Assembly (NCBI GenBank): GCA_937904325.1
Contig: CALGTK010000251.1
Coordinates: 1 to 33,982, forward strand
Length of the DNA: 33,982 nucleotides
Direction of reading: 5' to 3'
Source: an uncultured Planctomyces sp.
Lineage (GTDB): Bacteria > Planctomycetota > Planctomycetia > Planctomycetales > Planctomycetaceae
Of the stretch, positions 1-21,159 are shown piece after piece. Position numbers and translations under genes: made by a program. Position 1 is the first letter of the stretch, and each line of letters opens with the position of its first letter. The notes under the pieces are model-generated. The model worked only from the letters and a program-made list of their open reading frames with translations. It was not told the DNA's origin and did not search any database.

Positions 1-102
1 GTGCCGATCAGGTTTCTGCTGAATCGCTTTTTTGATCAGCGGTATCTGTTGGCGCTGGATGCGAGCGAGATTCCAGAAGATGAGGAAACTCAGTGGTCGT
101 AG
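1..102 (+). CDS. C-terminal end of an unidentified protein (partial)
   Basis: The first reading frame is open from the window edge and ends in TAG at 100-102, giving 33 residues that end in an acidic tail (SEIPEDEETQWS). The stretch before it is rich in aromatic and hydrophobic residues (RFLLNRFFDQRYLLALD). The window opens on GTG, but this is probably the edge cutting through a longer gene and not a true start. I do not recognise the family. The kinase gene follows in the same direction about 120 bases downstream. Confidence 0.4.
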   Translation: MPIRFLLNRFFDQRYLLALDASEIPEDEETQWS

Positions 103-225
103 AATTGAGTCTTTGTTGATTTTGATAAGTTCTTGACGCGAAGGCTGGTCGGTCTTTTCGTTATCTGATTCGTTCCGCAGTGATTCGAATCCGCTTTCCG
201 TGTGCCAGGTACACTGATTTTCTGC

Positions 226-1485
226 ATGAATGAACCAAGCGAAGACGACGCTTTCGAGCCTGAACTTGATGGATTCCCGACGGAAATCGATCCGCGGCGG
301 GTTCGGTCGCGCGTGCAGATCGAGGTGTTGGCCAGTGAGTACGCCGATAACGCTCGGCAGGGAAAAACTCCGTCGATCGAAAGCTACATTGAGCGGTATC
401 CGGATATGGCCACTGAGATTCGAGAGTTGTTTCCAATGGTCGCAGCTCTGGAACAATGGAAGTCAGACCGCGAGAACGAAGTGCTACGCAATCAACTTCC
501 GGATCAATTCAAACTTAAACAGCTGGGTGATTGTCGGCTGGTTCGAGAAATTGGTCGCGGCGGAATGGGCGTCGTCTTCGAGGCTCTCGAAGGGAGTATC
601 GAGCGTCGTGTGGCCGTGAAGTTGTTGCCCTGGCGGATTTCGATGGTGCCACACCGGCAGGAAAGGTTTGAACGTGAAGCACAGACGATTGCGAAACTTC
701 GTCATTCCAACATCGTGCCGATTTTCCGTTTCGGCAGGCATGAAGACTACGCCTACTACGTGATGCAATACGTCGAGAGCGTGAATCTTGGCCACATAAT
801 CGGGGCGTTAAGCGAACGTCAGCAGGTTTCTCCGGCGCAGGAGATCCGAGACGAAGTCGGCGAATCGTCCAGCGGTGAATCATGGACACCTGAAGCTGCT
901 GACCGAAAAAAACTTAAGCAGGACTCATGGAAAGCATTTGCGAGAATTGGTTTGCAGGTTGCTCAGGCTCTTCGGCATGCTCACCGCATGGGAGTGTTGC
1001 ACAATGATGTAAAGCCCGGAAATCTTCTAATCGACGCTTCCGGAAAAGTCTTTGTCACCGACTTTGGTCTCGCCGAACCACTGAATCCGGACTCATCCGA
1101 AGTGGACGAATCGGTCAACGGGACGTTGCGCTACATGGCACCAGAGCGATTTGAAGGCGTCTTTGACGAAACCAGCGACGTCTATTCGTTGGGGATTACG
1201 CTTTTCGAACTGGTGGCTCAGCAATCGGCATTTGAAACGGACAGCCAAGTTGGTCTGATTACCGCAATCGCGGCCGGCGAAGTCCGCTCAGTTGTCGAAG
1301 CACGCAATGACCTGCCGCCAGATCTGGCCGCGGTTATTGCTAAGGCGATTTCACGAGAGCCGAACGATCGCTATCAGTCCGCTGGAGAATTCGCGTCTGA
1401 TCTGCTGCGTTTCATCAACGGAGAACGAGTTTCCGCAAAGTCAGCAAAGGGGATTTTTCGATGGCTTCGGCGTCAGGAGAAATAA
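226..1485 (+). CDS. Serine/threonine protein kinase, planctomycete type, without membrane segment
   Basis: This is a Hanks-type protein kinase of 419 residues if it starts at ATG 226; an in-frame GTG at 202 would add eight residues. Visible landmarks are the glycine loop GRGGMGVV (110-117), the ATP-binding lysine in VAVKLL (K132), the catalytic loop HNDVKPGN (259-266), DFG (279-281) and APE (305-307). The catalytic loop has HND where RD kinases have HRD, so it is a non-RD kinase. A hydrophilic insert of about 40 residues (195-235) sits after the hinge region. Residues 1-95 form a helical N-terminal region like the one that precedes many planctomycete kinase domains (ESYIERYPD). The protein ends at FRWLRRQEK. 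In many planctomycete kinases a similar RWxRRNP stretch leads directly into a membrane helix and a WD40 or TPR sensor region. The substrate is unknown. Confidence 0.93.
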   Translation: MNEPSEDDAFEPELDGFPTEIDPRRVRSRVQIEVLASEYADNARQGKTPSIESYIERYPDMATEIRELFPMVAALEQWKSDRENEVLRNQLPDQFKLKQLGDCRLVREIGRGGMGVVFEALEGSIERRVAVKLLPWRISMVPHRQERFEREAQTIAKLRHSNIVPIFRFGRHEDYAYYVMQYVESVNLGHIIGALSERQQVSPAQEIRDEVGESSSGESWTPEAADRKKLKQDSWKAFARIGLQVAQALRHAHRMGVLHNDVKPGNLLIDASGKVFVTDFGLAEPLNPDSSEVDESVNGTLRYMAPERFEGVFDETSDVYSLGITLFELVAQQSAFETDSQVGLITAIAAGEVRSVVEARNDLPPDLAAVIAKAISREPNDRYQSAGEFASDLLRFINGERVSAKSAKGIFRWLRRQEK

Positions 1486-4000: not shown

Positions 4001-7000
4001 TCAGTCGATGTAAATAAACTCGTTGGCGCTGAATATAGCTCTGCAGAATTGCCACAATCCATATTGATTAATCGCCTCTTGTGCCAGTTCTATTTCCACC
4101 GAATCGGGAGATCGTGCAAACGCCAGTTGGAACGCGAGATTGATTTGCTTGTCGATGTTCGGGCCGCATTTCTGCCGTAGCCTTTCGACAAAGTATTTAG
4201 ACTGCTTGAGCATGAACTCGTTGTTGTACATCGCGAGCGATTGCTGGGCTGTGGTGGTGATGTTTCGTTGCGGAGTGAGATTGGCCGGGTCCGGACAGTC
4301 CAGGGCGGTCATGAATTGCTGCGGCGTTGTTCGCACGATGAATCGGTAAACGCTGCGTCGCCAAAGTTGCGGACTGTCGGCAGTGCGGTAGGTGTAGATC
4401 GGTGCGTAGGCTTCTTTGTATTCGAAGTCACGATACCCCGGACCAAACATCGCGTCGTTCAGTTTCCCAGTCACTGCCAAAACGGAATCCCGGACTGCTT
4501 CAGCTTCCAGACGATGCGGATTCATTCTCCAGAGTAGTCGGTTGTCTGAGTCCACTTCCGTTTCGTTCAAAGATTGATCGATTTCGGTTGCTGTGCTTTG
4601 TCGCTGATATGCCTGCGAGGTCACGATTAATCGGTGAATGTGTTTCAGGCTCCAATCAGACTGCAGCAGTTCGTCGGCCAACCAGTCCAGCAGTTTGGGA
4701 TGTGATGGTTTGCCACCTCCATAGCCGAAATCGCTGGGGGTATCGACGAGTCCAACTCCGAAGTGCCAGTGCCATAGTCGGTTGACGATGACTCGGCGAG
4801 TTAAAGGATTGTTCGGTGCAGTGATCCATCTGGCGAGAGCGAGCCGTCGGTCGCGATCTGCCAGTTTCGGAGAACCGAATCTAACGTCGGATCGCCCGAA
4901 GCCAAGACTGCCTGGTACAACAGTGCCCTCGGGAGCTTCTGGGTTGCCTCGCGTCAGGATGTGTACTGCGGGTGGAGTTTCGCTAACGACTCCAAAGAAC
5001 TCAGGCGGCTCCCCAAGCGACTTGAAATCAGCTTCAAGGGACATCTTCGTTCGTTTAAGTTCAGCGAGTTGTTCGGCCTGTTCATCAGTGAGTACGACTT
5101 TTGTCGCGACCGCCAAACGTGGGTCGCCGAAGCAGATTTGGTCGTGGCTGTATCCATTCCCGCCATCGGTTGAGATCAGCGTCAGGAACCGGGCATTCGC
5201 GGGAACCTTCATCGTAATTCGCGCGGTGTCGTTGCGTCCAAGTCTGTCGGTGGCCTTAAGTTTACCATCCAGGTAGATGCGATACTCAGCGCTCGGTTCA
5301 GTGGTTCTGCCGCCGTAACCGGCGACAGTGGAGAACTGGTACTCGATGAGTGAGGTGTCTTCGACGTTCGGGCGTCCGGCATCACGGATGGCGGCCAGAT
5401 CGAATGTGATGCCAGCGTTGGCGTGGAGTCCGATCATCGAGTGTCCGGCGGAGTGGTAATCGACATTGTCCAGCTTTGTTGAGTACTGACTCGAAACAGG
5501 ACCGTTGCGAATCATGTCCCAGGCTTTGCCACCGTTTACTGGCAGACCGTCAGCCACCAATCCCGTTGAGCTGATTTTTGTCTGGCTGTTGGCAGGTACA
5601 AATACACCATCGATAAATGGTGAATCTGGAGAAGCATAGTTACCGGGTTTCACATTCCCGAGATCTCCAAACGGTCTCTCCTGGATTTTTCCTGTGCGAG
5701 TGTCGATTCCCAAACCCCTGGTGCCCGTTCCTAATCCGTTTCCGCCACCAACGATGTCCGCCAGGTCGATTCCTTTGTGCTCAAACCGTCCGATCTGCGC
5801 TGAAATCTGTGTGATCAGATTTGCAAGTGCAGTTTTGTTGTCGTTGTACTCTTTTCGTCGTGCCGGATTGATGTCTCGATTGTTTCGACGAGCACCGGCG
5901 AACACTGCGGCAAGCTGGTAGTACTCGCGCTGCGTAATCGGGTCGAGCTTGTGATCGTGACAGCGAGCGCAGTTAACTGTCATGGCGACGGTCGACGCCA
6001 TGACCTGTGTGAGCATGTCGTCGAGATCGAGTGCGCGGGCGGAGCGGCGAAGGATCGGGCTTTTTGTCTCGACTTGCCCGACAAAGTCCCACGGTCCGGC
6101 CGCCAGAAAACCGGTTGCAATTGTGGACTCGTCCGTCGTCGCGTCGAGTGCGTCCCCGGCAATCTGCTCAAGCAGAAACTGATCGTAAGGTTTGTCGTTG
6201 TTAAAAGACCGGATGACGTAATCTCGGTATCGCCATGCGTTATCGCGACGTTTGTCACGTTCGAAGCCGTGAGTGTCGGCGTAATGGGCAATGTCAAGCC
6301 AGTGTCGCGCCCAGCGTTCACCGAAGTGTTGCGATGCCAGTAGCTCGTGTACAAGCTGTTCATACGCCATTGGGTTGGAACTCTCTTCGAAGTCTGCAAC
6401 CGCCGTGGGCGATGGTGGAAGGCCGAGCAGATCGAAATAGAGCCGCCGAATGAGTGTTAGACGATTGGCCTTCGGAGAGGGACGCAAACCTTTCTCCTTA
6501 AGGTTCGCGAGGATAAAGTGGTCGATCGCGTTTTTGCTGGTTGAGTCAGTCTTCGGCGGCGTTTGAGTCTTGATCGGCTGAAGAGACCACCATGTCGAGT
6601 CTGCCTTCGCCCTTGTTTTAAGAGTGAATGCTTCCGGCCAGTTGGCGCCGGCTTCGATCCACCGCCGAAGCACGTCAACTTCCGCGGTAGTTAATGGCTG
6701 GCCTTCTTTCGGCATCGCAGGTCGCTGATCACCATCAGGTTGGATGATGGTCAGCAGATGACTTTCTTTCGGCTTGCCGGGTACGACGATGCCAGCCTCA
6801 CGCAATCCGGTTGCATTGTTTAATGAGACGTCTCCCTCCGGAGAGTCCGGCCCGTGACACCGCAGGCAGTTGGCTTCGAGGATCGGCGCAATGTCGCGCT
6901 GGAAGCTGATTTGCTCTGAAGTCTCGTCGGCAACGGCCGCGGTCAGGTGTATTGCAGCAAACACAAGCACCGTCGCCGCAACTGCGACAAGTCGGCCGTT

Positions 7001-7045
7001 TGTGCTGCGTTGAGCAGGTGCGTGGCGATGGGCGACGTCTACCAT
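4001..7045 (-). CDS. PSD1 protein: planctomycete cytochrome C, DUF1549, NPCBM-like insert and DUF1553
   Basis: This 1014-residue exported protein has a hydrophobic N-terminal segment (about 19-39) ending near AVADE. A planctomycete cytochrome C domain follows, with a CLRCH haem motif at residues 60-64 and a WIEAGANWP end near 130-137. DUF1549 runs from about 172 to 385 and contains a second CARCH motif (359-363) in the usual NCARCHDHKxDPI context. Residues about 425-645 form a beta-rich insert (GITFDLAAIR, YLDGKLKATDR, QICFGDPRL) that resembles an NPCBM carbohydrate-binding module. DUF1553 follows from about 728 to the end (RVIVNRLWHWHFG). Its start overlaps the enolase-type gene upstream by seven bases, so translation is probably coupled. 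The family is thought to act in the periplasm in polysaccharide use, but its chemistry is unproven. Confidence 0.95.
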   Translation of the reverse strand: MVDVAHRHAPAQRSTNGRLVAVAATVLVFAAIHLTAAVADETSEQISFQRDIAPILEANCLRCHGPDSPEGDVSLNNATGLREAGIVVPGKPKESHLLTIIQPDGDQRPAMPKEGQPLTTAEVDVLRRWIEAGANWPEAFTLKTRAKADSTWWSLQPIKTQTPPKTDSTSKNAIDHFILANLKEKGLRPSPKANRLTLIRRLYFDLLGLPPSPTAVADFEESSNPMAYEQLVHELLASQHFGERWARHWLDIAHYADTHGFERDKRRDNAWRYRDYVIRSFNNDKPYDQFLLEQIAGDALDATTDESTIATGFLAAGPWDFVGQVETKSPILRRSARALDLDDMLTQVMASTVAMTVNCARCHDHKLDPITQREYYQLAAVFAGARRNNRDINPARRKEYNDNKTALANLITQISAQIGRFEHKGIDLADIVGGGNGLGTGTRGLGIDTRTGKIQERPFGDLGNVKPGNYASPDSPFIDGVFVPANSQTKISSTGLVADGLPVNGGKAWDMIRNGPVSSQYSTKLDNVDYHSAGHSMIGLHANAGITFDLAAIRDAGRPNVEDTSLIEYQFSTVAGYGGRTTEPSAEYRIYLDGKLKATDRLGRNDTARITMKVPANARFLTLISTDGGNGYSHDQICFGDPRLAVATKVVLTDEQAEQLAELKRTKMSLEADFKSLGEPPEFFGVVSETPPAVHILTRGNPEAPEGTVVPGSLGFGRSDVRFGSPKLADRDRRLALARWITAPNNPLTRRVIVNRLWHWHFGVGLVDTPSDFGYGGGKPSHPKLLDWLADELLQSDWSLKHIHRLIVTSQAYQRQSTATEIDQSLNETEVDSDNRLLWRMNPHRLEAEAVRDSVLAVTGKLNDAMFGPGYRDFEYKEAYAPIYTYRTADSPQLWRRSVYRFIVRTTPQQFMTALDCPDPANLTPQRNITTTAQQSLAMYNNEFMLKQSKYFVERLRQKCGPNIDKQINLAFQLAFARSPDSVEIELAQEAINQYGLWQFCRAIFSANEFIYID

Positions 7046-8496
7046 TTCACGTCCCAGTCTTTGAGTGGTGTCAGATTATTGAAGTCAGGCTCGAAGACGA
7101 CGCCAAAGGCTGCCTTTTGCAAAGAGCCGCAGCGAACCTGTCCATTTTGAATGTTGAGGAACAGGTTGCCGTGTCTTTCGACGTACAGATCCGGATGATG
7201 TCGCTTTGTGAGTTGTTTTTCGGTATCTGTCAGGTGCTGCAGGCCGAAACTGTAGTGGTGGCCGTTTCTTTCGCAGTGGTCAATGCCGAGAATACCAAGC
7301 GCGGCGAAGTCCTGATGCAGCGGGACGAGCGGCATGTTTGAGAGATCCTCGCCTGTTTGAAATGCGGCTCGGCCGTGTTTAGTTTCGAAATCCCGCGTCA
7401 GGCAGAAGTTTAGCAGTGACTTGAAGAAGCCTTTGCAGTTTTTGTGTGACGTTCCGGAATAGCCGATCTGAAATGCGTCGCGAAAAGAGTGCAATGTTCC
7501 GTCGGCTTCATCGATGACCAGCAGTTTCTTTTTCGAAATCGTCGCGACGGTTTTTGCCGTGGCTGATTCATGGGTTAACGTTCGAGTCAGAGGTTGTTCA
7601 ATAAACGCGGTATGCTGAAAGAGGCCGAGTTGCTTTTCTTCGAAGGTTTCGACGAAACGGGCAAACGCGTCGATGTCCTGAAAACTTTCGTTGCCGTCCA
7701 GTGTGATGACTGGTTGATTGGTTCGTGCGATGACGTTCCAGACCTTTCCCAACCGTGCGAGATCAGCATCGGGGTCGCCGGAAATCTTGACCTTCAGATA
7801 TCTCAGTCCGTCTCTCGCTACGTATTCCTCAAGCGTCTCGGGTTCTCCGTCGTTGAGGCGTTCGGATTCTGGAAGGTCGGACCTGGTGAGAGGATCGGCG
7901 AGTCCCACTGTATGGCGTATATTGAAGGTCGTAAGTGGACGCTGCGGAAGGAAGTGCTGCAGTCGAAAATTTCGCAGTTCAGGGAAAGCGGATTGAGGAG
8001 TGAAATCGAGCTTGTTCTGTCGGACCGCTTCGAAAATCGACAGCTTTTGGATTCGGCACACGGCGTCGAGCATCGCCCGTTCAAGCAGTGCCGATGCGAA
8101 GCTACAGGATAGGTCCTCATGATCAGTACCTCGGCCGATTCCTGCGACTTCTGCAGCGTTGACCAATACTTGCTGAAACGGCGACACGAAACGAGAATGA
8201 TTCAAGTAGACGTTTCGTGCTGAGCCGACGAGTGTCAGCAGTCTTTGAAGTTTCTGTTCGGGTGGATACCCGGGGCGTTTGTCGAGCCAGCCGAACGACG
8301 GACGGTCGCCAGATACGCCCCACGACCGGTTGCCTTTGTCGTCCGCCAGTTCAAGTCGAACGACCAGGAAGCCACGCGGTCGCCGTTTTCTGGGTGGTGC
8401 AGGGGAAGTCCCTGACTTCTGTCGACCGATGACGAATGAGCCGCGGTCGGGCGGTAACTCGCGAACGAAGACGTCGATTGATTCAATATGCCACAC
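7039..8496 (-). CDS. Enolase superfamily enzyme (mandelate racemase / muconate lactonising type)
   Basis: The 485-residue protein starts at GTG 8496, with GAAGG about ten bases upstream. Enolase-superfamily landmarks are KVK in LKVKISG (K235, K237), the metal-ligand aspartate in ITLDGNES (D267), the glutamate in FIEQPL (E300), and IDEAD (D329, E330). Lysines in SHKNCKG (352, 355) lie where the second general base is expected. The first about 165 residues are the capping domain. There is no signal peptide, so it is cytoplasmic. It would abstract a proton alpha to a carboxylate; the substrate is unknown, possibly a sugar acid given the downstream NPCBM-containing gene. It is the first gene of an operon and overlaps PSD1 by seven bases. 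At 485 residues it is longer than the roughly 350-400 typical of the superfamily. Confidence 0.88.
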   Translation of the reverse strand: MWHIESIDVFVRELPPDRGSFVIGRQKSGTSPAPPRKRRPRGFLVVRLELADDKGNRSWGVSGDRPSFGWLDKRPGYPPEQKLQRLLTLVGSARNVYLNHSRFVSPFQQVLVNAAEVAGIGRGTDHEDLSCSFASALLERAMLDAVCRIQKLSIFEAVRQNKLDFTPQSAFPELRNFRLQHFLPQRPLTTFNIRHTVGLADPLTRSDLPESERLNDGEPETLEEYVARDGLRYLKVKISGDPDADLARLGKVWNVIARTNQPVITLDGNESFQDIDAFARFVETFEEKQLGLFQHTAFIEQPLTRTLTHESATAKTVATISKKKLLVIDEADGTLHSFRDAFQIGYSGTSHKNCKGFFKSLLNFCLTRDFETKHGRAAFQTGEDLSNMPLVPLHQDFAALGILGIDHCERNGHHYSFGLQHLTDTEKQLTKRHHPDLYVERHGNLFLNIQNGQVRCGSLQKAAFGVVFEPDFNNLTPLKDWDVKW

Positions 8497-13250: not shown

Positions 13251-14282
13251 TCAGCGGTCGCCGTGGATTAACGACACTGCGTTATCGTTAAACAGTGCTT
13301 CGATCTGCGGTTCTGTCAGGCCTGCGGCCAGGGATGCGCGTTTCATGGCTCGCAATTGTTCGAATCTTGTAAATGTCATCCGGCCATCGCAGTGACTGAG
13401 GTTAAGGTTGTGATTCTGCTCGGATAGATATGCCCAGCCATAGCCGAATGAAACGTATTTTCCACGCAGTACACCGACTGGAACATCGTCGCTCCCATAC
13501 ATAACCCGCTGAATACCGACGGTGCGAATCAGGGCTTCGATCGCGTCGGACTCGCAGACGGACGATGTGTCAAACCAGGTATTTGGCATTTTCCGCAATC
13601 GATTCCCTGCACGTTCGATTGGCCATGCCGAGTAAGCACGGGCGCAGTGGGCAAGAATCCAACGGGCACGCGGGTACTGCGTGGTTAGAAATTCGAGGTC
13701 GTCCAGATTCTGGGGATCACTGATGCCATCTGGTTTAGACAGATGCATCATGATCAGCAGGCCGAGCCGATCAGCAACCGCAATTTGATGCTCTGGAAGA
13801 AAGTCCGTGATGCGGCAGTGTACATAGTCGCCTGTCGCTGAGAAGAAGCGGTAGGGTTTGAGTCCGAGAAAACCATGTTGCTCAACGGCGGCTTCGATGT
13901 CATCGGCGGTCATTTCGGGATGCACGAGCATCAATGCGCCGGACGCAGAGTGGCTCTTTACTTCGCCCGCGATGAATTCGTTGGAGCCTTCAAAGTCGCA
14001 GCCGTTTGAATACGGAAAGGGAAACGACAGTCGCTCTACGTGCCGGCCCGGCATCAGAAGTTCGTCGCACTTATCAAGCAACTCCCAACCTGCGTTCTCA
14101 AATGCCGGTTGTACAAAACTGCGGAGCGGGCCGGAGTCTTTATCCGGATCTGTGTTGTAAGCCCAACGAAAAATGTGAGTGTGTGCGTCAAATATCTTAT
14201 CGGGGACGAAGCCGTCCAATTCTTCATCCCAAATTCGCCTGTCGAGATCGTTCAATTCAAGTACGGACATTCTCTGGCTCAT
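13251..14282 (-). CDS. Amidohydrolase family protein (amidohydrolase 2 type)
   Basis: The 343-residue protein shows metal-dependent amidohydrolase landmarks: FDAHTHIF (H34 and H36), GLKPYRFFS in mid-chain, LLIMMHLSKPDG, WILAHCARAY, and VMYGSDDVP near the end. These supply the histidines and aspartate expected for the metal site. There is no signal peptide, so it is cytoplasmic. The family includes hydrolases and non-oxidative decarboxylases of the ACMSD type, and the reaction cannot be told from sequence. ATG 14282 was taken; ATG 14270 is equally possible, as neither has a clear ribosome binding site. It is the last of three minus-strand genes with short gaps, after the aminotransferase (32 bases) and the CocE-type hydrolase. 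Confidence 0.88.
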   Translation of the reverse strand: MSQRMSVLELNDLDRRIWDEELDGFVPDKIFDAHTHIFRWAYNTDPDKDSGPLRSFVQPAFENAGWELLDKCDELLMPGRHVERLSFPFPYSNGCDFEGSNEFIAGEVKSHSASGALMLVHPEMTADDIEAAVEQHGFLGLKPYRFFSATGDYVHCRITDFLPEHQIAVADRLGLLIMMHLSKPDGISDPQNLDDLEFLTTQYPRARWILAHCARAYSAWPIERAGNRLRKMPNTWFDTSSVCESDAIEALIRTVGIQRVMYGSDDVPVGVLRGKYVSFGYGWAYLSEQNHNLNLSHCDGRMTFTRFEQLRAMKRASLAAGLTEPQIEALFNDNAVSLIHGDR

Positions 14283-14314
14283 TTAGAATAGGGATTAGTG
14301 GTGGCCGACGGGCG

Positions 14315-15655
14315 TCACTTAACCAGTCGGTGGAAGAGATCTTCCTGCTGGCTCGCCTCAACAAATTGATCAACGTTTCCTTTATCCAACGCTTGAACAA
14401 TGAGTGAGAATGTTTTGCGAGCAGCATTTGCAGTTTGTTCGACTTCGGTGTCGCCTTGAGCAGCGTTGAGGTAGTAGGACGTGTAGCCGTGGCAGCCTTG
14501 CTTTGCCATTTCCTGAATGTAGAGCGTTGTCACCTGGGCAGTGAGCGACGCATCGATGTCAAATTCGAGCCTTGGATGAGTATCGATGCCGACGCACGAA
14601 ACCGGACAACCAGTTTCGGCTGCGACCTCATTGAGGGTTGTCTTTAGATGGCGACCGAGTTGCTGCAGTTTTGTGGGAACATCTCGGCGCCGGATTTCGC
14701 GAAGTGTGGTCAGAGCGGCACGCAAACCAATAGTATCGCTCCAATAAGTGCTCGAGACGAACATTCTGGCAGCAGGTTTCATGACGTCGCGTTTTCCCAC
14801 GACTGCTCCCATCGCGTATCCGTTAGAGATTGACTTAGCAAAGACGGCCATGTCCGGGATGGTCCCGACTACGGTCTGAACGCCGGCTGCAGAAGCACGA
14901 AATCCGGTTGATACCTCGTCAAAGATCAGCACAACGTTGTGTTTTGTCGCCAGGCGACGGACTTGTTCGAGGTACCCTTCGGGGGGCATTTCCGACCGGA
15001 GTGGCTCCATCATAATTGCCGCAACTTCACCGGAATGGAGATCGAGCAGTTGTTCCAGTGCGGCAGTATCTCCATAGGGAAATGGGATTGCAGAGCCTGC
15101 GAGACACTGCGGAACTCCAGTCGGATCGATCTGTGGAAACAGATGTGAATCCAGACTGCCGGGTGAGAGGTTTGCTGCCAGATACCAGTCGTGCCAGCCG
15201 TGATACCCACAAAACAGAATTTTATCACGGTCGGTTGCACCTCGAGCAATGCGAACTGCGATGGCACATGCGTCACCGCCTCCTTTTGCATATCGCACCA
15301 TTTCTGCACAGGGAATTGTGGCGACGAGCTCTTCAGCCAGTTCGACTTCCAGTTCGTGATTGATCGAGTAAATCGTGCCCGAATCGATTTGTTTCTTGAC
15401 GGCGGCGTCCACTACCGGGTCACAGTAACCGAGAATGATGGCGCCGATTCCGCTGACCCAGTCGATGTAGGTATTACCGTCGAGATCGGTGATGTACGCA
15501 CCTTGAGCACTGGTCGCGTAGACGGGTGATATGCCAGCAGCAAATCGTGACGGCCGACGGCTGATGAGCTGCGTGCCGCCTGGAATAAGTTCGCAGGCCC
15601 GCTTGTACAGCTTCATTTGCTGATCGACGTTGTGCTGTCTGGAGTGTGCCGGCAT
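14315..15655 (-). CDS. Class-III PLP aminotransferase, glutamate-1-semialdehyde aminomutase-like
   Basis: The protein has 446 residues from ATG 15655, with AGGTG about 12 bases upstream; in-frame ATG 15715 and TTG 15724 would extend it. Landmarks are ACELIPGGTQ near the N-terminus, TDLDGNTYIDWVSGIGA, KGGGDACAIAVRIAR (phosphate-binding region), FCGYHGWHDWYL, IFDEVSTGFR (PLP-contacting aspartate 246) and FAKSISNGY (Schiff-base lysine K274). The pattern is closest to HemL-like enzymes. Its place between a CocE-type hydrolase and an amidohydrolase argues for catabolic transamination or an aminomutase reaction, not haem synthesis. The gene starts shortly after the hydrolase stop at 15728, so they are probably co-transcribed. 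The amino donor and substrate are unknown. Confidence 0.92.
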   Translation of the reverse strand: MPAHSRQHNVDQQMKLYKRACELIPGGTQLISRRPSRFAAGISPVYATSAQGAYITDLDGNTYIDWVSGIGAIILGYCDPVVDAAVKKQIDSGTIYSINHELEVELAEELVATIPCAEMVRYAKGGGDACAIAVRIARGATDRDKILFCGYHGWHDWYLAANLSPGSLDSHLFPQIDPTGVPQCLAGSAIPFPYGDTAALEQLLDLHSGEVAAIMMEPLRSEMPPEGYLEQVRRLATKHNVVLIFDEVSTGFRASAAGVQTVVGTIPDMAVFAKSISNGYAMGAVVGKRDVMKPAARMFVSSTYWSDTIGLRAALTTLREIRRRDVPTKLQQLGRHLKTTLNEVAAETGCPVSCVGIDTHPRLEFDIDASLTAQVTTLYIQEMAKQGCHGYTSYYLNAAQGDTEVEQTANAARKTFSLIVQALDKGNVDQFVEASQQEDLFHRLVK

Positions 15656-15727
15656 GTCTTTGTTGCACCTGAATGTGGGTGGAAGCGGACGTAATTCTGC
15701 AGCAATGCGAGCCATCACGGGCAAGTG

Positions 15728-17389
15728 CTAGTCGTTGGAATTGAGAACTGGAGCGATGACTCGCGAGGCGTGTTGGCTGTTGTGGTGGATTGTGTTTGTT
15801 GCTTTCTGAGCATCTCCCGGGAACTCGATCGTCAGGGGTTTCCCGTTTTGTGGATTCGGTTCATAGAGTGGGGCTCCGGTACTGGCGACTGTGACTCGGA
15901 TTTGGTGTCCTTTGTTAAAACTCTGGCTGATCCAACCGACCGGGAACGCCACTTTGTGGACTTTGCCTGGTGTCATGAGGACCTCTTTGTCGAAACCTTC
16001 GCGATAACGGGCACGCAGCGGGTAGTCGATGATCAATATTGATCGCCCGTCGGGGTAGACATCGCTCACCCGTACGATGAAGTCTGTGTCGAGTGCCGTA
16101 GAGGACACATAAAGCTCGGCATGAACTCGGCCGGTCCACTCGACAGCTGTTTCAAGTGGCGCTGTTGTAAACGTACGAACGTCAGGCTGCTGCTCGAAGG
16201 TGCGAGCGTCTCGGGCTCCAGGGAATGATCTACCGGGAATCTGCATTGGGTGTAGTGGATCACTGACGTAACTTGTCGAACTACTTTCGGATGCCTGTTT
16301 GAGCGTGGAGAGACCACCGCCGCTGTGAAGGTACATCGACGTTTCCGTCGCTTCAGGCGGAAAGTTTTCGGCAGTTCGCCAGACGTTTCCGGGGGCACCG
16401 GGCTCGTCGACGGCCCCCATCACGTAGTACCGCACGTTGGCGTCGCGATTGACTCCATTGTTTTTGCCTTTGAGGTGGTGATCGAACCAGCGAATCATGT
16501 GCGAACTTACGTCGAAGGCGGCGTTCTCGGGATAGATCATCTCGCCAATGCGGTTGCTCTTGTTACGACCGCCGTGCAGCCACGGACCGATGATCAACTG
16601 TTGCTGATCTTTTGACTGCTCACCTCCGTAATGCTGCCGACCCTGAAAGCTGGCAACGGATCCCTGATTCATAAAGTCGTACCAGCTTCCGATGGTGAAG
16701 CATGGGACATTCATTTTGTCGAAGTGCAGCGTACAGTCTTCGGCTTTCCAATAGTCGTCATAAGTTGGATGCCTGAACCACTCTGCGACCAGACGCTGGT
16801 TGTCTTCCGGGTTCCGGGCGACAGCGTCCATCCCTTTGAAACGATTTGGTCGAGTCGTTCCACCGATTCGATAGCCTTCCTGAAAAAGACTCAATCCCGT
16901 GTCCCGCATGTACTGACACACGAGATGCGGAGGCTTCGTCACTGCCAGATAGTTCTGAGCGTAACCTCCCTGTGATCCGCCGAATGTTGCGATCTTGCCG
17001 GTACACCACGACTGTTTTGCGAGCCATTCGCACGTGTCATAGCCGTCGGACAGTTCACCCCACTGCAACGCCCGATAACCAACCCACGTTCCCTCAGATT
17101 TCTGAGCACCGCGGAAGTTGACAAGAACGACGACATAGCCGGCCTTTGAAACTGCGGCCGCTGCACGACGCGTGGAAGCGGCTCGCAGGCTGGCATAGCG
17201 TTGTTCAAAAACGGCAGGCCAGGGTCCATCGCCAGAGGGTACATAGAGATACGCCGACAGGCGGACGCCGTCTCGCATCGAAATCATCTGGTGTCGTTCC
17301 GTCACGTCTTCAAACTCAAGATCGTCCTCGCCGACGGCGGGGATCGCGAATGTAGAGAAAACAGCGGCCGCAATGAGCAGGCGTGGCAT
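15728..17389 (-). CDS. Secreted CocE/NonD family hydrolase (X-Pro dipeptidyl-peptidase S15 type)
   Basis: The protein has 553 residues from ATG 17389, chosen because a clear signal peptide begins there (MPRLLIAAAVFSTFAIPAVG). The open frame extends further upstream, but that part has no homology-like sequence. Landmarks are ISMRDGVRLSAYLYVP, VLVNFRGAQKSEG, the nucleophile elbow FGGSQGGY (S139), IGSWYDF, LIIGPWLHG, and a C-terminal jelly-roll domain with FIVRVSDVYPDG and HQIRVTVASTGAP. Family members cleave esters, beta-lactam acyl groups or N-terminal dipeptides. An exported form would release an acyl or amino fragment outside the cytoplasm. It heads the minus-strand operon, and its start faces the divergent triple-RidA gene across about 150 bases. 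Confidence 0.92.
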   Translation of the reverse strand: MPRLLIAAAVFSTFAIPAVGEDDLEFEDVTERHQMISMRDGVRLSAYLYVPSGDGPWPAVFEQRYASLRAASTRRAAAAVSKAGYVVVLVNFRGAQKSEGTWVGYRALQWGELSDGYDTCEWLAKQSWCTGKIATFGGSQGGYAQNYLAVTKPPHLVCQYMRDTGLSLFQEGYRIGGTTRPNRFKGMDAVARNPEDNQRLVAEWFRHPTYDDYWKAEDCTLHFDKMNVPCFTIGSWYDFMNQGSVASFQGRQHYGGEQSKDQQQLIIGPWLHGGRNKSNRIGEMIYPENAAFDVSSHMIRWFDHHLKGKNNGVNRDANVRYYVMGAVDEPGAPGNVWRTAENFPPEATETSMYLHSGGGLSTLKQASESSSTSYVSDPLHPMQIPGRSFPGARDARTFEQQPDVRTFTTAPLETAVEWTGRVHAELYVSSTALDTDFIVRVSDVYPDGRSILIIDYPLRARYREGFDKEVLMTPGKVHKVAFPVGWISQSFNKGHQIRVTVASTGAPLYEPNPQNGKPLTIEFPGDAQKATNTIHHNSQHASRVIAPVLNSND

Positions 17390-17542
17390 GGCGGGGTCTC
17401 TTGAGAGGTGAGGGGAACCGGTCGTGGATCGACGACACACGATAGAGATGTGCGTGTCTCTCCGGCTACCATCCGAGACGAACTTGCTCGGCGAATCGAA
17501 CCGTAGGTTTGTCGAATCCTTCAAATATGAATTGGAGTGGTC
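17390..17542. promoter_or_regulatory. Divergent intergenic control region between the two catabolic operons
   Basis: These 153 bases separate the starts of the leftward hydrolase operon and the rightward triple-RidA operon, so both promoters should lie here. An imperfect inverted repeat around CGAACC-GTA-GGTTTG (about 17497-17513) is a possible operator. I could not identify convincing -35/-10 boxes, and no regulator gene lies next to it. The assignment rests on gene layout. Confidence 0.4.
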
Positions 17543-20383
17543 ATGAATGCACGCAACTCGCATGCAGAGGATGGGGCCAGAACCTGCCGTCAATACCTGC
17601 ACGGATTCTTCGCAGGAAGGGTGGCCGCCGCGGTGCGGTTGATCACTTTTGTATTGATGACTTTTTCCGCGTCTGAGTTTTGCACTGCCGTACAGGGTGC
17701 GGATAGAGCCAGCGGAGTTGCTATCGAACGATTTCCTTCTACGACTGTTGATGGCACATCAATCGCAGTCCGAGTGCGGAATGCGGCGCTCGCTCATACG
17801 ACTCAGATTTTTCCTGAGTCGACCGATACCAATGATGCGGCAACTCAAGTGACGTCGCTCTTCGCCCGACTGCAGACCGTTCTGCAGAAAGGCGGCGCGA
17901 CCCCGAGCGATATCGTAAAGCTGAACGTCTATGTTCGAGACTCCAGCGTGCGAACTATCATTTTGAAAGAGTTGTCGCGTTTGACGGCTGATGTTCAGCC
18001 CGCCATTGCCTTCGTTACGACACCGCTTCCAGACATGAACGTCGTGGTCGCACTGGATGCTGTTTTCGTAATGCCGCATATATCGGAGAGGGGACAGCCG
18101 TATTTCATTGTTCGTGAGGAACGAGCAGGCACCGACTATTCCGCAAGGGTCCGCGTTCTTCCACCGGGAGATGTCGTTTACGTTTCGGGCCAGGCGGCGG
18201 CGGGCGAGTTAGCCAAAGCAACGACAGATACGCTGGACGGGCTGCTGAAAACAATCGAAGCACTTGGTCTCGATCGGTCGCACATCGTCCAGATCAAGAC
18301 TTTCATGAGGCCAATGTCGGAAGCCGACGTCGTGAACCGTCAGATCGAAGCGTTCTTCGAAGAGATTCGAGTTCCACCGGTCTCGCATGTTCAGTGGCTG
18401 TCCGGCTCACGCCCAATAGAGATGGAACTGGTTGCGTGGGCACCACTGAAAGCGTCGGTCGAGACGGTCAGTTATTTCACACCGGACTGGATGAAGTCGT
18501 CACCAGTGTTCAGCCGGGTCGCACGGATCCATGGAAATGATCGTGTCTATGTTTCCGGCCTTGAAGCCCTGTCGCCTGGCGATGGCGAGAGTCAGGTGCG
18601 TTCGGTCTTCCAGTCGCTTGCGGGGGCACTCACGGCTGCTGGATCGGATCTTCGTCACTTGGCAAAAGCGACATACTACGTGTCCGATGCCGATGCGAGT
18701 GGCCAGCTCAACGCTTTACGGCCTTTCTATTACGATACCGCACGGCCTCCGGCTGCTTCGAAAGCAATGGTTGCTGACGTTGGAACTGCAGAGCGAACGA
18801 TTTCCGTTGACATGATCGCAGCCCCGGCAAGTTTGTTACGTAAGATGCCAAAACGCTCCGTTGAAGACAAACAGCCGAACGCGCACAAGACACAAACGGA
18901 GCTGAGAATTTCAACGGAAGTAGATTTCGGTACCGATCGTGGCCAGAGCTTCGGATCGCTATTCGAAATCCGAAATGGTGAGGGGCGTGTTGTCGCGGGG
19001 GCTGGCTTTGCCGATGTATACAACACTCGCTTTCGCACAGGCCGGCGGACGTTGCAGTTTTTTGTTCGCCCGGAGCGTGATGAGGCGAGTTTTGAAGTTG
19101 AGCGTTTGCCACATCCGGATCTCGACTGTGGCGTTTATCTGTGCGAATTTGACCATCAGATTTATGCCTGGTCGTCGGTCCGGGGGAACTCAGTTCGCAA
19201 GTGGGATGCGAAGTCTCGAACGTGGATCAAAGAGTTGCCGCCCGGTATGAAGGCTCTGAGATCGGGCGATGGCCTGATGCGTCTAGGGGAGGGGCGTCTC
19301 GTATTTTCTGAAAACGAAGCCTGGTTCAACGATCGGCAGATTCTGTCTGCCCCGGAAGTTGGCGGTTATTTTAACTTCTACTACGCCGATGGTCATCTCT
19401 TTTTCTACCATCGGAATAACGCTGATGCCGCGTCTTTTACTCGTATTATGGCTTGCCCCTGGACGTCGGATTCCGACGGCGCGATCGATCTGTCGTCGGC
19501 CATCGTCCTGAAGACGAAGTACGAGCTGGAGACGCCATTTGCCTGGGGGCAGTTCGGAAGGCAGGTGCTGACGGTTTCGAATCGCGGCGGGATCTATGTC
19601 TTTGAGAAAGGAAAGTGGCGGACAACACTCGCCGCGGACAACCGTTTCAGCTACCAGGTATATTCGTCCTTACGCTTGCACGATCGTCTGCTATTAGCTC
19701 AGTATCCGACTGGAAATGTCTTCGGATATCGGGGACAGCAAGCCGTTCAGCTTAAAGACTGGCCTCCCGTGATGGCTGGGGTGTCTTCCAGCGCCCGAGA
19801 GTGCCAGACGCTTGGCGTCTACAGAGGCGACCTGTTGGCGGGAGTCTGGCCGTGGGCCGAACTGTGGCGTCGCGATCGGGACGCCAGGAAGTGGCATTTT
19901 GCAGCAAGAATGTTTTCTCATCCACTGCTGACAGACATGAAGACTCATCCCTACGAAGCCAAGGCAGATCAATTCAAACTGGTGAGGAATCACTGGGGGC
20001 AGCGAGTGACCAGTCTGATTCCCTATCAGGATTCGTTGCTCCTTTCGACTTCATCCAAAGGGACTTACGAGTGGGACGATCGCTATGGATTTCTGACGGA
20101 ATCTCAGCGGCGTGAATACGGAGCCGTACTTCGGCTCCGCATGCCAGGAAATCTCGCGGTCCAGCCAGCGTGGAAGAATGGCCCGACGAAGCTTGCCTTT
20201 GACTTTGACGGCAGAAAGCTGGCAGTCACTCAGGACGGTCGGCAGTTGGGAGAAACTCACGTTGATCGATCATTCACTGTCGACCTGTCAGAAGTGAATG
20301 TGAACTGGTCGCGCGGGGTGTTTGGTCCTCTACGCGGGCAACTGACTCGCGGCGACTTCCAGAAATCAGGAACGCCCCGATGA
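17543..20383 (+). CDS. Exported protein with three RidA-like domains fused to a propeller-like region
   Basis: The 946-residue protein starts at ATG 17543, with TTGGAG just upstream; a GTG at 17537 is also in frame. A hydrophobic segment (about 30-50) suggests export or anchoring. Three YjgF/RidA-like domains follow at about 75-178, 200-302 and 325-428. They share the pattern VYVSGQ/VYVSGL, a helix, and then VKLNVYVRD, VQIKTFMRP or AKATYYVSD. The PxR position that carries the catalytic arginine in E. coli RidA reads PAIA, PPVS and PPAA, so by eye all three lack it. From about 430 to the end the protein is beta-rich with repeated blades (YAWSSVRGNSVRKWD, YVFEKGKW, LLLSTSSKGTYEWD), like a beta-propeller, ending in a possible concanavalin-like piece (LAFDFDGRKLAVTQDG). 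Its stop overlaps the next start (ATGA). Confidence 0.85.
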   Translation: MNARNSHAEDGARTCRQYLHGFFAGRVAAAVRLITFVLMTFSASEFCTAVQGADRASGVAIERFPSTTVDGTSIAVRVRNAALAHTTQIFPESTDTNDAATQVTSLFARLQTVLQKGGATPSDIVKLNVYVRDSSVRTIILKELSRLTADVQPAIAFVTTPLPDMNVVVALDAVFVMPHISERGQPYFIVREERAGTDYSARVRVLPPGDVVYVSGQAAAGELAKATTDTLDGLLKTIEALGLDRSHIVQIKTFMRPMSEADVVNRQIEAFFEEIRVPPVSHVQWLSGSRPIEMELVAWAPLKASVETVSYFTPDWMKSSPVFSRVARIHGNDRVYVSGLEALSPGDGESQVRSVFQSLAGALTAAGSDLRHLAKATYYVSDADASGQLNALRPFYYDTARPPAASKAMVADVGTAERTISVDMIAAPASLLRKMPKRSVEDKQPNAHKTQTELRISTEVDFGTDRGQSFGSLFEIRNGEGRVVAGAGFADVYNTRFRTGRRTLQFFVRPERDEASFEVERLPHPDLDCGVYLCEFDHQIYAWSSVRGNSVRKWDAKSRTWIKELPPGMKALRSGDGLMRLGEGRLVFSENEAWFNDRQILSAPEVGGYFNFYYADGHLFFYHRNNADAASFTRIMACPWTSDSDGAIDLSSAIVLKTKYELETPFAWGQFGRQVLTVSNRGGIYVFEKGKWRTTLAADNRFSYQVYSSLRLHDRLLLAQYPTGNVFGYRGQQAVQLKDWPPVMAGVSSSARECQTLGVYRGDLLAGVWPWAELWRRDRDARKWHFAARMFSHPLLTDMKTHPYEAKADQFKLVRNHWGQRVTSLIPYQDSLLLSTSSKGTYEWDDRYGFLTESQRREYGAVLRLRMPGNLAVQPAWKNGPTKLAFDFDGRKLAVTQDGRQLGETHVDRSFTVDLSEVNVNWSRGVFGPLRGQLTRGDFQKSGTPR

Positions 20384-21159
20384 AGTTCACAGATTTTTCC
20401 GCGTCTTTTTTATCGTTCCGAATTGATACGGACAGAAAGCCGCCGGCGACTGTCAGTCACGAACCTCCGTACAGTCTTAACAACGCAAGGATTCAGCTTG
20501 AATGTTGCTGCGAAGTCACTGAGAAGTCGAGTGGCTGGTCCGACAAGTTCGTGCTGGGGGCGAGTTGCAAGACGGAACGGGTTGGGGTGGAGAATGATAT
20601 CTGGACGAAGCCAAATGCCGACTTTACTCCAATTTTTTCGAGTACTGGATTCTTGAATCTTAAAACGTATGCCCGAGCGGGGGATGATGTTGACCTTTAC
20701 CCGCCCGGCTCCGGTAAGCAGACAGATCGTCAGACAGGGACGCAAGCAGACGTTTTCGACTCCGCTAAGATCGACATCGTTGAACGCCCTGGAGTGATTC
20801 TCGAATCCGCGAGGGACATCGTCGAAGCGACACTGATGAACGCTCCGTTGATTGCTCGGACACGAATAGAGTCGGATCGATACGTCGCCGTCATTGAGCA
20901 CCCGATCAAGACAATGAATGCCAACGAGCGAGATGATATTTTTCAAACGGATACCGGACCAGTTCTGTATCCGGACTTAACCGCTGAGCCACAGGATATG
21001 CTCAATCGACTCGAACTCGCGTTCAGTGCGTTTAATTGTTTCAAGTCGCTGGAGTTTCTGGTCCGCTGTGAAACAGAAATCAATGATGGTATCTGCGTCT
21101 ACCACTACTCAAGATCTGTGCGGCACGCATCACATAACGAGATTATCCGGTTTCTGTGA
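20380..21159 (+). CDS. Hypothetical protein of 259 aa, coupled to the triple-RidA gene
   Basis: The gene starts at ATG 20380, whose bases overlap the preceding stop as ATGA, a standard sign of translational coupling. The protein is soluble, with no signal peptide or membrane segment. It contains a cysteine cluster (LECCCEV, about 41-47), FVLGASCKTERVGVE, a DIWTKPNADFTPIFS segment, and a mid-region rich in Asp, Gln and Thr. The C-terminal half has HPIKTMNANERDDIF. I recognise no domain. Its position between the triple-RidA protein and the transporter suggests a cytoplasmic enzyme or binding protein of the same pathway. The opposite-strand frame in this interval is a shadow. Confidence 0.8.
   Translation: MKFTDFSASFLSFRIDTDRKPPATVSHEPPYSLNNARIQLECCCEVTEKSSGWSDKFVLGASCKTERVGVENDIWTKPNADFTPIFSSTGFLNLKTYARAGDDVDLYPPGSGKQTDRQTGTQADVFDSAKIDIVERPGVILESARDIVEATLMNAPLIARTRIESDRYVAVIEHPIKTMNANERDDIFQTDTGPVLYPDLTAEPQDMLNRLELAFSAFNCFKSLEFLVRCETEINDGICVYHYSRSVRHASHNEIIRFL

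Follow-up and report, generated by a model that had tools for sequence, protein, structure and literature searches.

Rid proteins, among them the detoxifying RidA, are generally regarded as small housekeeping proteins of the cytosol. Seven residues have been reported as invariant in the RidA family, and in TdcF Arg105 binds the carboxylate of the ligand and Glu120 contacts the carbonyl of residue 107 across the subunit interface (PMC1884159). Replacement of the arginine (Arg105Ala) nearly abolishes the activity of known RidA proteins, mutation of Tyr17 or Glu120 in the Salmonella protein has little effect, and RidA genes classically cluster with those of PLP enzymes (PMC4433059). The subunits of Arabidopsis RidA are joined by the inter-subunit salt bridge K136-E182, and Ser166 makes a hydrogen bond at the interface. 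The Rid4-Rid7 proteins lack the catalytic arginine and are no imine hydrolases as far as tested, and the roles of such arginine-free proteins are a stated question in the literature (PMC4433059). Two described systems carry several units in one chain: the 3x-RidA proteins, for instance EF_0115 of Enterococcus faecalis, have three tandem RidA domains (Niehaus et al. 2015, PMC4433059), and AtzD consists of three concatenated YjgF units with Ser-Lys dyads, an arrangement called the Toblerone fold (PMC3758960). Since 3x-RidA was named in 2015, concatenation as such is not new.

The window considered here, the whole stretch of 33,982 nucleotides from an uncultured Planctomyces sp., encodes a triple-Rid protein whose ORF has a GTG start codon at 17537 and an in-frame ATG at 17543 (Table 1). 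That three RidA-like units lie in one chain, as a first-pass annotation of this DNA had claimed, is secure, because PF01042 (Ribonuc_L-PSP) matches three times in a Pfam scan (whole-protein E 1.9e-26, 92.9 bits against a cut-off of 27.3), an AlphaFold2 model of residues 59-434 built with 82 sequences is confident (mean pLDDT 94.1, pTM 0.94), and single RidA chains retrieved in a PDB search match this model at Z 12-14 with an rmsd of about 1.7-2.3 Å. The three segments thus fold as RidA in a prediction slightly wider than the one that had been proposed (residues 70-430). Each of the units also scores above the curated PF01042 cut-off in the whole-genome scan, and the NCBIfam RidA model TIGR00004 reaches 55.4 bits, below its curated cut-off of 106.25. 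The same annotation had called the chain exported, in agreement with a hydrophobic segment of the signal-peptide type at the N-terminus (residues about 29-55 of the sequence), and had raised the possibility of an intramolecular pseudo-trimer. The latter is now well supported, both by the confident one-chain model and by the trimer salt bridge, whose lysine has the equivalents K128, K254 and K377 and whose acidic partner has the equivalents D174, E297 and D425 in copies 1, 2 and 3, respectively, with K/R and D/E being kept in 80 to 82 of 82 rows at every position in all three copies. A domain-swapped N-terminal strand is hinted at by the model (VIA-align ranges 1..376, ~119 residues aligned).

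Table 1. Parts of the triple-Rid gene in the window, and the Bacteroidota loci that hold the gene cluster discussed in the text
Feature	Position	Strand	Basis or remark
Whole gene, triple-Rid protein with C-terminal partner domain	17537..20383	+	948 aa; a genome of the same genus has a full-length copy with 82% identity
Putative signal peptide / hydrophobic N-terminus, residues about 29-55	17621..17701	+	Sequence itself
Rid copy 1, residues ~60-183	17714..18085	+	Pfam, genome scan, model, profile alignment
Arg105 position of copy 1 (I157)	18005-18007	+	Profile alignment
Rid copy 2, residues ~190-308	18104..18460	+	Pfam, model, profile alignment
Arg105 position of copy 2 (V282)	18380-18382	+	Profile alignment
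Glu120 position of copy 2 (E295)	18419-18421	+	Profile alignment
Rid copy 3, residues ~309-434, most conserved	18461..18838	+	Pfam, model, profile alignment
Arg105 position of copy 3 (A407)	18755-18757	+	Profile alignment
Cys107 position of copy 3 (K409)	18761-18763	+	Profile alignment
C-terminal partner domain, residues ~456-940, separate unnamed family	18902..20356	+	Stands alone in other genomes
Bacteroidota cluster loci			L057, L061, L062, L063, L066, L069, L072, L075, L081, L097

The catalytic arginine is missing from all three copies. When each copy is aligned by profile with E. coli RidA (reference sequence identical to PDB 1qu9), I157, V282 and A407 fall on the Arg105 positions, exactly the I, V and A that had been read there by the first-pass annotation, so that the alignment it had proposed as a check leaves no copy with an intact arginine. 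Among 82 relatives, Verrucomicrobiota and Bacteroidota members included, none has R or K at any of the three positions, and the loss is therefore common to the whole sampled family and no local accident. Misalignment by a few residues was considered as an explanation and rejected, the flanking two columns on each side being likewise without R or K, K409 excepted. The remaining cleft residues are conserved unevenly: Glu120 is kept in copy 2 only (E295, 82/82), Gly31 in copies 2 and 3 (G218 in copy 2, 82/82) and Tyr17, as Phe/Tyr, in copy 3 only (F325), where in addition Asn88 aligns with N392 (71/82), Cys107 is replaced by lysine (K409, 78/82), S408 is found in 82/82 and R395 is invariant (82/82). 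Copy 3 also has the largest number of columns conserved at ≥90% (31, versus 24 and 13 in the other copies). Judged from the sequences, the persistence of E295, G218, S408 and K409 looks more like an active site that was retained and altered than like one that decayed, although the conservation of Glu120 alone is no proof of catalysis, given the mild effect of the Salmonella Tyr17 and Glu120 mutations.

An alignment-based search of genome contigs yielded 187 relatives, 80 loci of which were fetched, whereas the full protein as query found none in the same contig search. The fetched relatives come from Planctomycetota, Verrucomicrobiota, Bacteroidota, Acidobacteriota and a candidate Hydrogenedentota MAG. 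Of 150 genomes sampled from the window's family, which is probably Pirellulaceae judging by the named relatives, 78 encode a triple Rid (37 of 58 genera), nearly always in one copy per genome; across the phylum it occurs in 8 of 199 genomes, and a plasmid search found none on plasmids. Copies 1, 2 and 3 each form one clade in a tree of single units (SH-aLRT 95, 98 and 98), so that the triplication preceded the radiation. The domain stands alone in 56 of 81 ORFs, with C-terminal extensions in 16 and N-terminal ones in 11, and a simple heuristic, used in place of a trained predictor, finds a hydrophobic stretch ahead of the domain in 51 of the 56 standalone relatives. On these comparisons, the triple-Rid domain is an old, mostly exported family. 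Some members are organized differently: a same-genus genome encodes a second triple-Rid protein of 1119 aa (L058:6528-9884, the same place as L034) with a long N-terminal extension and an alpha/beta-hydrolase-like C-terminus, and L083 carries a tandem pair of triple-Rid ORFs (4741-6021 and 5883-7604) on a single contig. The window's genome also contains a Rid-like fragment with an in-frame TAA (G000:C316:4019-4270, L003), possibly a pseudogene.

The C-terminal half had been described as a propeller by the first-pass annotation, a fold that is not confirmed: no family of Pfam or NCBIfam scores above its cut-off in residues 456-940, a PDB profile search with them returns kelch chains alone and weakly (E 0.6), and the model of this half, made from two sequences, has a pLDDT of 31.7, too low to use. 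The HMM search that it had suggested for this region thus gave no named family, but the region does represent a genuine separate protein family, whose members in other genomes are mostly standalone proteins of about 510-610 residues. Its fusion to a triple Rid was seen in the window and one same-genus genome only (82% identical). Both families are present in 43 of the 150 sampled genomes, a single one in 35 and 12, and neither in 60, which amounts to an odds ratio of 6.1 (p 1.4e-6; by genus 7.9, p 0.002) in a test that ignores shared ancestry and genome size. This co-occurrence, together with the fusion, suggests a functional link between the two. The neighbourhoods of the standalone C-terminal family hold no recurrent neighbour. 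One relative of the domain (L017:1429-4023) carries an extra ~350 residues that by eye have the look of a TIM-barrel glycoside hydrolase.

Elsewhere, triple-Rid domains are fused to BNR repeats, a BD-FAE esterase, HEAT repeats, a DUF7133-HEAT-cytochrome c combination, a 3-keto-disaccharide hydrolase, DUF2920, a phosphatase-like domain or Sel1 repeats. A DUF7133/TIGR02604 (PVC-type heme-binding) gene adjoins the triple Rid or is fused to it in 16 of 80 loci from four phyla. In ten Bacteroidota loci (Table 1), the genes for a TIGR02604 protein, a HiPIP electron carrier and the triple Rid are consecutive, followed in most of them by a DegT sugar aminotransferase with a twin-arginine-like start; several loci also have a heparinase-like protein, SusC and SusD, an unnamed protein likewise belongs to the cluster, and the gene set is incomplete in some loci. 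Planctomycetes are rich in sulfatase and DUF1501 genes, and DUF7133, with 39 matches in the 8 Mb of the window's genome, is abundant as well, so that the context is in part background. For this reason, neighbouring DUF1501 and sulfatase genes were not counted as evidence, and since DUF7133 occurs within 8 kb of a triple Rid about as often as its density predicts in planctomycetes, the argument was confined to genes that directly adjoin a triple Rid, to fusions and to the conserved cluster of the Bacteroidota. What remains, namely TIGR02604, cytochrome c or HiPIP, the 3-keto-disaccharide hydrolase and the SusCD context, points to an extracytoplasmic oxidation of glycans or of products derived from them.

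Enzymes of the PLP type form another part of the surroundings. DegT genes lie near the triple Rid in 11 loci, and class-III aminotransferases are found in the window and four fetched loci, including the syntenic sister L038. In L041, the ORF of a PALP pyridoxal-phosphate enzyme (L041:9097-10170) lies directly downstream and overlaps the end of the triple-Rid ORF; PALP (threonine-dehydratase-type) was rejected as a partner, being present in this one locus only. In the window itself, a divergent run of three genes (13251-17602, minus strand), syntenic in L038, encodes an amidohydrolase, a glutamate-1-semialdehyde-aminomutase-like aminotransferase that lacks a signal peptide and an exported CocE/NonD hydrolase. 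On the other side, an ORF of 259 aa (20380-21159, plus strand) begins on the triple-Rid stop codon (ATGA overlap) and has no Pfam match; in L082 (L082:2227-4008), and also in L038, the triple-Rid gene is immediately followed by a relative of this ORF, which possibly encodes a conserved partner.

The reading that we favour, tentatively and at somewhat less than an even chance, is that of a Rid enzyme put to new use, in which a single composite cleft has survived and handles carbonyl, enol or imine intermediates that carry no carboxylate. An exported covalent pseudo-trimer would have been repurposed and, in the window's lineage, fused to a second exported protein that is encoded separately elsewhere; one of the three inter-copy clefts would be kept as the working site, and the other two would be structural. 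Because Glu120 of TdcF reaches residue 107 of the next subunit, the cleft between copies 2 and 3 is a possible meeting place for E295 (Glu120) and G218 (Gly31) of copy 2 and K409 (Cys107), N392 (Asn88) and F325 (Tyr17) of copy 3; that these residues share one cleft we infer from their conservation. The putative substrate would be a reactive carbonyl, enol or imine without the alpha-carboxylate that is normally held by Arg105; the likeliest candidate is an intermediate of sugar oxidation that is formed in the extracytoplasmic space. The wider proposition, that a widespread family of exported enzymes, covalent Rid trimers grown asymmetric, uses one retained arginine-free composite active site for keto-/imino-sugar intermediates of extracytoplasmic glycan oxidation, is one that we hold to be rather doubtful.

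Against a one-cleft enzyme it can be argued that the very diverse fusion partners also fit a general-purpose binding module. The first-pass annotation had opted for binding or sensing and not deamination; that the protein would be no ordinary imino-acid deaminase fits the role of the arginine in RidA (PMC4433059), and binding or sensing is only one of two live options. A non-catalytic binding, sensing or scaffold module, in which the pseudo-trimer would recognise a small ligand or partner protein and so give the attached exported domain its target, is a serious rival, if on the unlikely side, in our estimation. It would agree with the missing arginine in every copy of 82 relatives and with the varied partners (BNR, HEAT, Sel1, phosphatase-like, esterase, cytochrome c) typical of a recruited module, as well as with the extensions at either end of the domain, and is harder to reconcile with the many standalone, nearly always single-copy relatives and with the invariance of Glu, Lys, Arg and Gly residues that correspond in position to the Rid active site.

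Catalysis of a more conventional kind seems to us quite unlikely: an enzyme that still deaminates imine or enamine intermediates arising from PLP enzymes or oxidases, its carboxylate being bound by K409, R395 or R403 in place of Arg105, would make sense of the conserved basic residues in copy 3 and of the nearby DegT, class-III aminotransferase and PALP genes, which recall the classic clustering of RidA with PLP enzymes (PMC4433059), yet several of these enzymes, the window's aminotransferase among them in lacking a signal peptide, look cytoplasmic whereas the Rid protein is exported, PALP is confined to a single locus, and known RidA activity hardly survives the loss of Arg105 (PMC4433059). 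We also consider it improbable that the concatenated Rid fold serves another kind of chemistry, for which the cyclic amide hydrolases of the Toblerone fold or the chorismatases would be the models, with S408 and K409 as nucleophile and base. Chorismatase chains (5a3k, 5ag3) are the best Foldseek hit in the PDB (E 5e-11) and Toblerone-fold chains are among the best (E 2e-8, TM 0.24, rmsd about 21), and the Ser-Lys dyads of AtzD (PMC3758960) offer a precedent; however, TM-scores are low (0.2-0.3), the AtzD/TrzD families have no match in the Pfam scan at E 0.1, adjacent residues of one strand normally point opposite ways, and the S408-K409 pair is present in copy 3 only.

With the homotrimers RidA, TdcF and UK114 (PMC1884159, PMC4960622), the protein shares the fold, the trimer salt bridge and, in part, the cleft residues Gly31, Glu120, Asn88 and Tyr17 (as Phe/Tyr), whereas these proteins are single-domain and have Arg105. 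AtzD and barbiturase likewise probably consist of three concatenated, repurposed YjgF-type units, but their Ser-Lys pairs occur in all three units round a threefold-symmetric active site. Chorismatase has a Rid-like fold (191-193 residues aligned, Z about 12.9), with only 11-14% identity, an rmsd of 3.3-3.5 over the aligned part only and no match of its family by sequence. The 3x-RidA proteins have the same three Rid domains in one chain, a presumed covalent trimer unit, but were classed in 2015 in the RidA subfamily, which mostly keeps Arg105, and were described without export, loss of the arginine from all copies or partner domains, so that the distinction made here follows that description. 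No description of the exported arginine-free triple-Rid branch was found in the literature searched, and this branch, its uneven copy conservation and its fusion partners appear to be undescribed as far as an incomplete search can tell. The exported arginine-free Rid family spans several phyla, is conserved strongly and asymmetrically and has neighbours that are informative; it offers a natural experiment on the fate of a symmetric trimer turned into one gene, and a tractable single-chain test case for the role of arginine-free Rid proteins. The Rid4-Rid7 proteins share the absence of the catalytic arginine, but they are single-domain, replace it by tryptophan (Rid4, Rid7) or variable residues (Rid5, Rid6) and keep the glutamate, whereas the triple Rid has mostly aliphatic residues or alanine at this position and retains Glu120 in one of its three copies.
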